Assembly (NCBI RefSeq): GCF_900178005.1
Contig: NZ_FXBS01000006.1
Span: 682,001-746,000, forward strand
Length of the DNA: 64,000 nucleotides
Direction of reading: 5' to 3'
Source: Tuberibacillus sp. Marseille-P3662
GTDB taxonomy: Bacteria; Bacillota; Bacilli; Bacillales; Sporolactobacillaceae
Shown here: piece after piece, positions 20,694 to 63,242 of the stretch
Layout: each line of letters starts with the position of its first letter
How positions within the stretch are numbered: position 1 is the first letter of the stretch
Position numbers and translations under genes: made by a program
The notes under the pieces: generated by a model
The model's database searches: none
Told to the model about the DNA's origin: nothing
What the model saw: only the letters and a program-made list of their open reading frames with translations

Positions 20694-20752
20694 CAAGATT
20701 GGAGCACTTCCCCGCTTTTCTAAGGACTACCCTTATCATTTTAACGGAGAAG

Positions 20753-20850
20753 GAAGGGATCGACTAAAAACCGCAACGTTCTGTTGCTGCCGCTAATGCT
20801 AGTACATCCTGTGCGTTACGACGTAGTAAAAATGATTATAGAGGGAGGAA
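20753..20850 (+). promoter_or_regulatory. Two-hairpin leader, copy A (before homoserine dehydrogenase)
   Basis: In the 163-base spacer, about 100 bases resemble the leader at 25176-25275. There are two small hairpins: GCAAC/GTTGC (20773-20787) with loop GTTCT, and GTAC/GTGC (20802-20814) with loop ATCCT. The shared segment AGTAAAAATGATT then leads into AGAGGGAGGA, the ribosome site of the gene at 20857. Similarity runs through the Shine-Dalgarno site and stops at the coding start, which suggests a cis-acting RNA. I do not recognise the class. A member of a dispersed hairpin repeat family is the alternative. Confidence 0.55.
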
Positions 20851-20856
20851 TATGTT

Positions 20857-21909
20857 TTGGCTCATAAATTAGCTTTTGTCGGGTTTGGTGGTGTTGGGCA
20901 GGCTTTAGCAGACATTATCTTGGACAAAAAGGAAACCTTGAAAGAACAAATGGGAACGGAACCTATCATTGTTGCCATTTCTGATGTTATGAAAGGAGCC
21001 GTTTATCATCCAGATGGCTTAGATATTGAGACTTTATTGAAAACAGTGAGAGAAACGGGTTCGGTTGAGCAATATCCTAATGTTCCGGGCTTAAAGACAG
21101 GAATGAATAGCATCGAAACGATTCAACAGACGAATGCAGATACCATTGTTGAAGTGACTTATACAGATGTACAAACGGGTCAACCGGCGATTGATCATTG
21201 CCGGATGGCGTTCCAAAACAGTAAAAACGTGGTAACGACGAATAAAGGGCCGATTGCACTTGCTTACCATGAATTATCACAACTTGCAGCCGATCATCAT
21301 GTCTTTTGGGGATTTGAGGGCACGGTCATGAGTGGGACACCAGCACTACGAATGCCGAAAACAACGCTTGCTGGCAACGAGATTACAGAAATCAAAGGTA
21401 TTCTAAATGGCACAACCAATTATATATTGTGTGAAATGGAAGCTGGTTTAACTTATGATGAGGCTCTAAGTAAAGCCCAAGAACTCGGGTATGCCGAAGC
21501 GGATCCCACAAGTGATGTTGAAGGCTACGATGCCCGCTACAAAACCGTTATTTTAGCCAACTATGTGATGGGGGCGCCATTGGACGTTTCAGATATTAAG
21601 TGCCAGGGAATCACGGGTCTGAATCAAGGGGATATCGAAACTGCCCAAGAGCAAGGTGAAAAGTGGAAGCTGATTGCCAGGATTCGAAAAGAAGAGGGGG
21701 GCATCAAGGCAAGTGTTCAACCTGAGCGAATCTCCGCTGATGATCAGCTTGCGGCTGTTCATGGCCCTGTGAATGCCATTATTTATGAATGTGATCTGGC
21801 TGGAACAATCATGTTGACGGGTGCGGGTGCAGGTTTGCAGGAAACAGGTTTCTCATTGCTTATTGATCTAATCAATGGGGTGCGAGATCGATCTTTGGCC
21901 AAAACATGA
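20857..21909 (+). CDS. Homoserine dehydrogenase without ACT domain
   Basis: A 350-residue NAD(P)-dependent oxidoreductase. VGFGGVGQALADI is the nucleotide fold, TTNKGPIALAYHEL the hinge, EGTVMSGTPALR and EIKGILNGTTNYIL the substrate loops. GYAEADPTSDVEGYDARYK keeps the catalytic set E214, D225 and K229. The C-terminal ACT domain that gives threonine feedback in many biosynthetic forms is absent (usual length with ACT ~430). It converts aspartate semialdehyde and homoserine into each other. Set between an ectoine deacetylase and an aldehyde dehydrogenase, it probably acts in catabolism: aspartate semialdehyde to homoserine. The start is a TTG at 20857, 8 bases after GGAGG, and a related leader lies in front. 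No thrB or thrC is near. Confidence 0.8.
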   Translation: MAHKLAFVGFGGVGQALADIILDKKETLKEQMGTEPIIVAISDVMKGAVYHPDGLDIETLLKTVRETGSVEQYPNVPGLKTGMNSIETIQQTNADTIVEVTYTDVQTGQPAIDHCRMAFQNSKNVVTTNKGPIALAYHELSQLAADHHVFWGFEGTVMSGTPALRMPKTTLAGNEITEIKGILNGTTNYILCEMEAGLTYDEALSKAQELGYAEADPTSDVEGYDARYKTVILANYVMGAPLDVSDIKCQGITGLNQGDIETAQEQGEKWKLIARIRKEEGGIKASVQPERISADDQLAAVHGPVNAIIYECDLAGTIMLTGAGAGLQETGFSLLIDLINGVRDRSLAKT

Positions 21910-25137: not shown

Positions 25138-25175
25138 CTTAGAAAATTTTTGTCAGGTCATTTTTAGCAGGGAAG

Positions 25176-25275
25176 TTAAGGAACATCGGCTAAATTTCGC
25201 AGCATCCTGTTGCAACGCCGGTCTAAGCACGTCCTGTGCGCGGCAACATAGTAAAAATGATTTCAGAGGGAGGAG
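25176..25275 (+). promoter_or_regulatory. Two-hairpin leader, copy B (before methylcitrate synthase)
   Basis: This stretch matches the leader at 20753-20850. It has hairpins GCAGC/GTTGC (25199-25213, loop ATCCT) and GCAC/GTGC (25227-25239, loop GTCCT), then AGTAAAAATGATT and the ribosome site AGAGGGAGGA. Here a further outer stem GCCG/CGGC (25217-25220 with 25241-25244) can enclose the second hairpin. GTTGC at 25209 could also pair with GCAAC at 25243, giving two alternative folds. Confidence 0.55.
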
Positions 25276-25281
25276 AACTTA

Positions 25282-26397
25282 TTGGTAGCAGAGCAAACCT
25301 ATCAACCGGGGCTTGATGGTGTCGTCGCTTCGCAGACAAGTGTTTCTTACTTGGATGTCGCAGCTGAAGAAATTGTGATTAGAGGTTACGATTTAATTGA
25401 ATTAGCTGAAAATAAGTATTACCTTGACATTGTAGGATTACTATTGGAAGGTCAATTGCCTGATCCATCGAGAAAAAAGGTGATTGAGTCGGAGTTGAAG
25501 CAAGACTATCATTTACCTGATGAAGTTCTAACATTGTTCAGGCAGCTTCCGAAGCAGACCCATCCGATGGATGCGCTTCGAACCGGTATTTCATTTTTAG
25601 CGGGTTATGATGCTGATATTGAAGACCGCACGGAAGCAGGAAACCGGAAAAAAGCGCTTCGTCTATTAGCTAAAATACCGAATATTATTGCTAATAGTTA
25701 TCATATAATTAATGGTCGCGAACCTGTTAGACCAGACAATACCTTGTCTTATAGCGCTAATTTTTTGCGCATGATGACCGGGCGTGACCACAACCAATTG
25801 GAAACCGAAATTTTTGATCAGTCGCTGGTCGTCTATAGTGAACATGAGATGCCCAATTCAACGTTTACTGCGCGGGTCATTGCTTCAACACATGCTGACA
25901 TTTATGGTGCGTTAACAGGAGCGGTCGCTTCATTGAAAGGCCATTTGCATGGAGGGGCGAATGAAGCTGTGATGCGTATGCTTTTGCAAGCGGATACAAG
26001 CGATGGGTTTAGAAAAATCCTTTATGATAAATTAAAGAATAAAGATCGGATTATGGGCTTCGGTCACCGTGTCTATATGAAAAAGATGGATCCAAGAGCC
26101 AACTTGATGAAACGGGCACTTAAACGTTTAGCGGATGAAAAAGGTCGCCTGGATCTTTATGATATGTGTGTAACGGGTGAAGAGGTGATGAAAGAAGAGA
26201 AAGGGTTATATCCTAATCTCGATTATTATGCGGCACCGGTCTATTATTTACTAGGTATTCCTATTGACTTATATACGCCAATTTTCTTTGCCTCCCGAAC
26301 TGTCGGGCTCGGTGCCCACGTCATTGAACAACATAACCATAATCGACTGTTTCGGCCGCGTGTCGAATACAACGGCCCACGCAATCTGCATCCGTAG
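25282..26397 (+). CDS. prpC: Citrate synthase family, probable 2-methylcitrate synthase
   Basis: A 371-residue citrate synthase-fold enzyme. SLKGHLHGGANEAVMRML carries the first active-site His, and GFGHRVYMKKMDPRA the second His with the Arg loop. The length and the early YLDVAAEEIVIRGYDLIELAE match the short Bacillus MmgD/PrpC type. It joins propionyl-CoA (or acetyl-CoA) with oxaloacetate. The next genes are prpD and prpB, so 2-methylcitrate synthase is the natural reading. It starts with a TTG at 25282, behind GGGAGGAG and the two-hairpin leader. PrpC-like enzymes often keep some citrate synthase activity. Confidence 0.85.
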   Translation: MVAEQTYQPGLDGVVASQTSVSYLDVAAEEIVIRGYDLIELAENKYYLDIVGLLLEGQLPDPSRKKVIESELKQDYHLPDEVLTLFRQLPKQTHPMDALRTGISFLAGYDADIEDRTEAGNRKKALRLLAKIPNIIANSYHIINGREPVRPDNTLSYSANFLRMMTGRDHNQLETEIFDQSLVVYSEHEMPNSTFTARVIASTHADIYGALTGAVASLKGHLHGGANEAVMRMLLQADTSDGFRKILYDKLKNKDRIMGFGHRVYMKKMDPRANLMKRALKRLADEKGRLDLYDMCVTGEEVMKEEKGLYPNLDYYAAPVYYLLGIPIDLYTPIFFASRTVGLGAHVIEQHNHNRLFRPRVEYNGPRNLHP

Positions 26398-47308: not shown

Positions 47309-47327
47309 AAATACAGTTGAATAAGGA

Positions 47328-47461
47328 GACCTTCGGGGCAGGGTGTAATTCCCGACCGGCGGTAGTGAAATGAACGATGTGTTTCTAAGTCCGCGACGCG
47401 CAAATGCGCTTGATCTGGTGAGATTCCAGAACCGACAGTGAAAGTCTGGATGGGAGAAGGT
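47328..47461 (+). promoter_or_regulatory. FMN riboswitch (RFN element)
   Basis: It shows the conserved RFN pattern: closing stem ACCTTC/GAAGGT, then CGGGGCAGGGTG, AATTCCCGACCGGCGGTAGT, later AGTCCGCGACG, CTGGTGAGATTCCAG, ACCGACAGT and AGTCTGGATGGGAGAAGG. With flavin mononucleotide bound, the downstream terminator (47521-47555) forms and stops transcription of ribD-ribE-ribBA-ribH. Confidence 0.95.
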
Positions 47462-47520
47462 TAACAACAACCTAATGGGACTGTCTTTATGTCCTAATTG
47501 GGTTGATTGGTATAGTAGAT

Positions 47521-63009: not shown

Positions 63010-63063
63010 TCATTGCAAGAGGGTTGTGAATTTTGTAGACTTGTGTAGAAAATAGAATAGTGG

Positions 63064-63242
63064 ATGTGTAGGTGTCGTTAGACTTAATAGGGAATTTGGT
63101 GTGAGACCAAAACTGTCCCCGCAACTGTTATTGTTGACGAATGAACATCATCACTGGGTGCTGCGAGCCCGGGAAGAGTTCTAGTAGGATGAAGCATGAG
63201 TCAGGAGACCTGCCTACGCATCGAGAGTGTTTCTATACTTCG
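63064..63242 (+). promoter_or_regulatory. Cobalamin riboswitch
   Basis: It has the conserved B12 elements: GTGTAGGTG at the 5' end pairing with CCTAC near 63231, AATAGGGAATTTGGTGTGAGACCAAAACTG in the core (GGGAA and the P4 hairpin), CCCCGCAACTGT, GAGCCCGGGAAGA, and the B12 box GAGTCAGGAGACCTGCC. It controls the BtuF-like gene at 63354: with adenosylcobalamin bound, expression should stop. Confidence 0.95.

Follow-up and report, generated by a model that had tools for sequence, protein, structure and literature searches.

Bacillaceae-1 (Rfam family RF01690) was described by Weinberg et al. in 2010 as a probable RNA that is not cis-regulatory (PMC2864571). Its strand has been considered uncertain, and its reverse complement has been matched to CsrA sites in an RMfam proposal (PMC4333381). 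Among short interspersed repeats, the pneumococcal BOX, RUP, and SPRITE elements are enriched between convergent genes (PMC3049150, Table 1).

Short bacterial repeats are usually thought to be tolerated by avoiding the regions where genes start. The strong copies of the repeat described here, which we call the Z-SD unit, lie in front of genes, mostly right at the start, and the open-access literature on repeats that bear a Shine-Dalgarno sequence (SD) yielded nothing useful. We analyzed a window of 64,000 nucleotides from Tuberibacillus sp. Marseille-P3662 (contig NZ_FXBS01000006.1, positions 682,001 to 746,000), in which the homoserine dehydrogenase gene (hom) and a prpC-like gene are preceded by related leader elements, copies A and B. 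The window also contains ordinary FMN and cobalamin riboswitches, at 47325-47465 and 63053-63231, respectively.

Results

Two leaders share a nested unit

When copies A (20736-20849) and B (25158-25274) are aligned, 88 of 122 columns are identical, with a local score of 66 as compared with a best score of 28 in 1000 shuffled pairs. The likeness stops at the TTG start codons, and the coding starts do not align. The original prediction had described two similar leaders, each with a pair of hairpins carrying R-T-Y-C-T loops and each diverging where the coding region begins, and in all three respects it is confirmed. More specifically, the hairpins of copy A are GCAAC-GTTCT-GTTGC (20773-20787) and GTAC-ATCCT-GTGC (20802-20814), and those of copy B are GCAGC-ATCCT-GTTGC (25199-25213) and GCAC-GTCCT-GTGC (25227-25239). 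On their 3' side both copies continue with AGTAAAAATGATT and then AGAGGGAGGA, and the final GGGAGG stands at the same distance from the TTG in both (Table 1).

Upstream of both hairpins lies the 5' arm of a stem, S2, with AGTAAAAATGATT as its 3' arm, so that S2 encloses the pair in either copy. This stem belongs to an outer repeat, in which a stem of variable sequence, ATCATTTT/AAAATGAT, closes a conserved loop, GCnnnGAAGnAnnTCGACGTAGT, containing TCGACGTAGT. The covariance model R1 recovered copy A as a complete unit (50.4 bits, E 1.2e-9); since this unit is complete from 20701, the feature begins about 50 bases 5' of the start originally predicted. For copy B, R1 matched the 3' part only (25224-25273, 27.7 bits).

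Table 1. Features of the two leader copies and the genes that they precede, in window coordinates.
Feature	Coordinates	Strand	Basis or remark
GGAG, 5' border of copy A	20701..20704	+	SD-like; probably the original SD of hom
Copy A, full SD-linked repeat unit with nested Bacillaceae-1 core	20705..20848	+	R1 match 20701-20848
S2 5' arm, copy A, ATCATTTTAAC	20735..20745	+	inverted repeat with 20826-20836, 91% complementary
Putatively decayed Bacillaceae-1 (RF01690) core in copy A, loops GTTCT and ATCCT	20751..20815	+	cmscan 23.9 bits, cut-off 35
S2 3' arm, copy A, GTAAAAATGAT	20826..20836	+	inverted repeat with 20735-20745
GGGAGG, SD from the 3' end of copy A	20843..20848	+	conserved repeat end, 8 nt before TTG 20857
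Homoserine dehydrogenase gene (hom)	20857..21909	+	Pfam Homoserine_dh E 8.3e-58
Copy B, diverged unit before prpC, CACTTCCCC 5' arm largely lost	25158..25274	+	alignment with copy A
S2 5' arm, copy B, TCATTTTTA	25158..25166	+	inverted repeat with 25252-25260, 100% complementary
Bacillaceae-1 (RF01690) core in copy B, loops ATCCT and GTCCT	25174..25240	+	cmscan 59.8 bits, E 1.9e-8, cut-off 35
S2 3' arm, copy B, TAAAAATGA	25252..25260	+	inverted repeat with 25158-25166
GGGAGG, SD from the 3' end of copy B	25268..25273	+	8 nt before TTG 25282
prpC-like 2-methylcitrate/citrate synthase gene	25282..26397	+	Pfam Citrate_synt E 3.2e-119

The hairpin pair is Bacillaceae-1, a dispersed repeat

The two hairpins had been suggested to be perhaps a new regulatory RNA; they correspond to the known family Bacillaceae-1. 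Copy B scores above the Rfam gathering score and copy A falls under it (E 0.34). From its position and its homology with copy B, we read the core of copy A as a probably decayed Bacillaceae-1, which is not counted as a full member. The loops in both copies are of the RUCCU type, with a single departure in the GTTCT loop of copy A.

RF01690 has 51 matches in this genome at E <= 10, with 38 of them above the cut-off; among 38 further genomes, drawn from the same family or order, 26 have it at 1 to 97 copies (E <= 0.01). Even within a single family the genera vary widely, from 0 to 97 copies. The contexts in the genome under study are diverse: the family stops about 6 nt short of 16S rRNA, adjoins 5S without a gap in the 23S-5S spacer, lies within a repeat having GACTCCTGCGGG/GCCCGCGGAAAGCG and within another of the form ACTTAAAGAAAGTATAAA...AAGTTTTCTTTA, occurs by itself in operon spacers (such as those ahead of sdaAA-like and trmB-like genes, so named from a reading of the protein start), and occurs inside the leader unit, as in copies A and B. 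In the rRNA and mRNA contexts examined, it is the RUCCU strand that lies in sense. As a whole, RF01690 behaves as a dispersed repeat. Numerous copies scattered away from start codons had been named in advance as the mark of a simple extragenic repeat, and this is what we found for the two-hairpin part. The enclosing unit does not behave in this way, since each of its strong copies precedes a gene in the sense orientation.

Several further placements of the core were observed. It directly abuts the 5' end of 5S in 23S-5S spacers of the own genome (L008 1385-1567 and L017) and likewise in L155 (1501-1573), and its end about 6 nt upstream of 16S recurs in other genera. In the relative G029 (L147 1437-1595), a degenerate 5S-like sequence lies about 200 nt past an intact 5S and carries a Bacillaceae-1 core at the expected helix-tip position. 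The operon spacer at the sdaAA-like gene (L018, L020, L050) holds three tandem cores with a period of about 65 nt, joined at AAGGA. Furthermore, a frequent extragenic repeat, GACTCCTGCGGG...TGAGACCCCGCA...GCCCGCGGAAAGCG (L002-L007, L009, L010, and others; own genome), is host to many Bacillaceae-1 copies.

Hairpins placed 5' to functional stretches of RNA (16S, 5S, and SDs) might alternatively guide cleavage or shield 5' ends, acting as elements of RNA processing or stability. The direct contact with 5S, the short distance to 16S, and the position of the SD-linked copies just before the translated part would all suit such a role. However, RF01690 is patchy within a single family, and many of its copies sit in non-genic repeats, and we consider this explanation quite improbable.

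Z-SD units precede unrelated genes at their start codons

In the genome under study, R1 scored 36 units at more than 70 bits, distributed over 20 loci, and found about 25 weaker loci. All 20 strong loci are oriented in sense to the next gene. At 18 of them the GGGAG(G) of the unit is the SD, and the start codon lies no more than 12 nt from the unit end. The two exceptions are ilvA and one other gene, with starts 38 and 44 nt from the unit end; for ilvA, 38 nt is the distance to the first conventional start, and an in-frame ATT is present about 12 nt downstream. Units also form tandem arrays of two to six, joined at GGGAG and all in sense, with six units at hisS, five at a dut-like gene, three each at moeA and a pepQ-like gene, and two each at parE, dapA, and ilvA. 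Further genes with a unit are leuB, rplY, tpiA, aroC, truB, etfA, arsC, a malic enzyme gene, uvdE, and grpE-like and mcsA-like genes, some of the downstream genes being named from a reading of the protein start. These genes are unrelated and have no pathway in common. The outer unit matches no Rfam family at the gathering threshold, and a strict pattern of the element gave no match in GTDB genomes beyond its own genome.

At hisS (L056 1170-1404 and 1470-1937), a T-box leader is followed by the six tandem Z-SD units and then by the start codon.

The core lies nested in the unit

Flank searches of the unit revealed a core-less form of about 82 nt, CACTTCCCC...AGAGGGAG, with the sequence CACTTCCCCGCTTCGCTAAGCACTACCATATCATTTTAGCAGGGAAGnAAAnTCGACGTAGTAAAAATGATTnnAGAGGGAG. 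Core-less units read GGGAAGnAAAGG-TCGACGTAGT, i.e., ...AAAGG-TCGACGTAGT, and in core-bearing units RF01690 sits between AAGG and TCG/CGACGTAGT (TCGACG). From this comparison of filled and empty units, the core appears therefore to have entered the unit. Decayed leader cores score 23.9 (copy A), 26.0 (L042), 25.7 (L044), and 15.4 bits (L049) against RF01690, and in the malic enzyme leader (L129) only the ends of the core are left. Leaders with a decayed or partly deleted core have kept GGGAG. Such decay fits a passenger role of RF01690, and its core would be mostly a passenger in these leaders.

The S2 stem covaries

In an alignment of 23 sequences, double changes were found in 7 of the 9 S2 pairs, and the covariation score over both helices was 0.450 as compared with 0.186 +/- 0.020 after shuffling. 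Among 42 distinct arm pairs, 7.36 of 9 positions were paired versus 5.72 +/- 0.16 with shuffled partners (maximum 6.29 in 2000); because these sequences had been selected by the loop alone, the stem provides an independent test. Twelve chance matches in other phyla formed 3.7 of 9 pairs. These sequence comparisons show that S2 is a genuine stem, formed either in RNA or in single-stranded DNA.

Of the 299 genomes of the order that were searched with a second model, R2, comprising S2 and its loop, 36 carry the Z hairpin, the present genome among them; they represent 18 of 117 genera. The copies examined elsewhere follow intrinsic terminators within a larger element, ACGTTAAGAAAGTATAAA...GTATAAGTGC...GAGTTTTCTTTA, or lie beside tRNA genes. 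A pattern of the loop alone matched 113 stretches in GTDB genomes, and among the 80 of these that were examined no Bacillales copy had a convincing adjacent start codon; in viral contigs there were 4 matches only. The stem covaries across Bacillales, and covariation in so many genera may indicate that the Z hairpin itself has a function, which counts against reading it as a pure repeat.

Z hairpins that adjoin a tRNA gene (anticodon CAT by eye) are antisense to the tRNA (L176, L186, L187, L182, L260, and others). These units are bounded by GGTTGC, a repeat of the tRNA 3' end, such that the boundary copies the neighboring sequence as it does in the SD-linked form. The composite element behind intrinsic terminators (L103, L171, L173, L215-L294) was seen in Caldibacillus, Gracilibacillus, Cytobacillus, Gottfriedia, and others; it has many copies per genome, and the copies tested had no Rfam match.

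A conserved loop on a covarying stem raises the alternative of a cis-regulatory regulon. Here the Z hairpin, alone or together with Bacillaceae-1, would bind a protein or small molecule and co-adjust the translation of about 40 genes, and CUUCCC would create two alternative states by pairing either with the GGGAAG of the loop or with the SD. A leader end that is always the SD, and the complementarity of CUUCCC to both GGGAGG and GGGAAG, agree with this idea as well. Against it, the target genes have no common theme, several leaders have a decayed or partly deleted core, and the module elsewhere follows terminators or adjoins tRNA genes rather than start codons. The helix S1 covaries poorly (71% paired, double changes in 2 of 6 pairs). 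The SD is predicted to be as accessible as in controls (mean P(unpaired) 0.45 vs 0.37 for 52 control genes, p = 0.11), and MFE z-scores are unremarkable in 4 of 5 core-less units and in both window copies; there is therefore no sign of a switch. We regard the regulon as unlikely and find no evidence for ligand sensing in this analysis.

Two more specific readings were set aside. An SD-sequestering switch was rejected on the predicted accessibility, and an H-type pseudoknot of CUUCCC/GGGAAG with S2 is not claimed, the cells in which S1 pairs being mostly from the own genome.

SD-like borders and orthologous loci

In 24 of the 29 loci compared, an SD-like 7-mer immediately precedes the first unit; at control positions further upstream, 0-6 loci had one. 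This border pairs with the anti-SD at the 16S 3' end with a mean energy of -4.5 kcal/mol, and the control positions gave means from +0.4 to -1.7 kcal/mol. Since the border sequences vary (AAAGGAG, TAAGGAAG, AAGGATG) and the adjoining CACTTCC on their 3' side is strongly conserved, the 5' border is probably the original SD of the gene. The border GGAG could instead belong to the repeat, which counts against a reading by insertion.

Orthologous hom genes of five relatives and prpC genes of seven gave no convincing R1 match and no match to R2 or RF01690. The leaders at all 12 loci are short and lack the element; these empty leaders come from other genera. The spacer between hom and the preceding reading frame measures about 0-25 nt in three relatives versus 163 nt here, and a fourth relative has a similarly tight spacing by eye.

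These results bear on the proposal that the two leaders carry a common signal for ectoine breakdown and the methylcitrate pathway. Both window copies do stand before neighboring catabolic genes and have the core in common, yet about 20 strong and 25 weaker copies lie elsewhere, and orthologous hom and prpC lack the element. A signal specific to these two pathways is extremely improbable, and was rejected because the same element precedes many unrelated genes. The post-transcriptional part of the original prediction survives in another form: because the unit ends in an SD, it is tied to translation initiation as an element of the transcript leader, and does not link two pathways. The suggested covariance-model search of this and related genomes, with the following genes read, did return many further copies.

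Discussion

Copies A and B probably belong to a genome-wide, lineage-specific set of nested, dispersed, structured repeats, which settle at SDs and bring along a substitute SD of their own. In such a process, a Z-SD unit would insert just 3' of the original SD of a gene and part it from the start codon, whereupon the GGGAG at the 3' end of the unit would take over as SD at normal spacing. Tandem copies would join at the same GGGAG, and Bacillaceae-1, a separate dispersed repeat, would have inserted into the loop of some units. We infer that the units spread by inserting themselves at SDs and not through some other copying route, and that their main effect is to keep translation going, as a portable leader, and not to sense a signal.

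A more far-reaching version, which we put forward tentatively, is that of a mobile element that targets SDs, brings a replacement SD at its 3' end, enters the leaders of essential genes, and stacks in tandem while translation stays intact, its loop offering a safe home to Bacillaceae-1 as a second mobile RNA repeat. If true, a repeat can invade essential 5' leaders (hisS, dapA, tpiA, rplY) without killing expression, and the Z-SD unit may be a natural portable leader module.

Among known systems, MITE-type, ERIC, and REP/BIME repeats (PMC10969869, PMC2229807) are likewise non-coding, repeated, structured, and extragenic, and multiple dispersed copies, as in MITE-like elements, are found here too (36 strong units at 20 loci). 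The Z-SD unit differs in that no terminal inverted repeats were recognized in it and no Y1 transposase was found. This transposase (PF01797) is absent from the own genome, on which ground IS200/IS605-type mobilization was rejected. Term searches of PMC10969869 and PMC2229807, both reviews of small mobile sequences, gave no mention of ribosome-binding sites, SDs, or start codons. With riboswitches and protein-binding leaders the unit shares a conserved, covarying structure (S2), and it lacks their coherent downstream genes and, by prediction, their control of SD access.

The BOX, RUP, and SPRITE elements of Streptococcus pneumoniae are also short, structured, interspersed repeats, and BOX is modular. 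One BOX copy lies within a T-box leader region (PMC3049150), and the hisS array here lies behind a T-box. Their distribution is the opposite of that of the Z-SD unit, which lies in sense at start codons and carries an SD. Similar to CsrA sites (PMC4333381), the reverse strand of the core has AGGAY hairpin loops; this reading was rejected, as RUCCU is on the sense strand at 16S, 5S, and mRNA leaders.

Bacillaceae-1 itself (RF01690, PMC2864571) is a further close system. The core has its two hairpins, both with loops of the RUCCU type, and its 5' part AAGGA..GGCTAA, and the present case differs by its nesting in a second repeat in mRNA leaders, besides rRNA operons. Bacillaceae-1 should be seen as a dispersed and often nested repeat, with the RUCCU strand as sense, rather than as a small RNA of a single function. 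The outer repeat, the Z-SD unit, is absent from Rfam, and the hairpin core that it encloses is already known as Bacillaceae-1.
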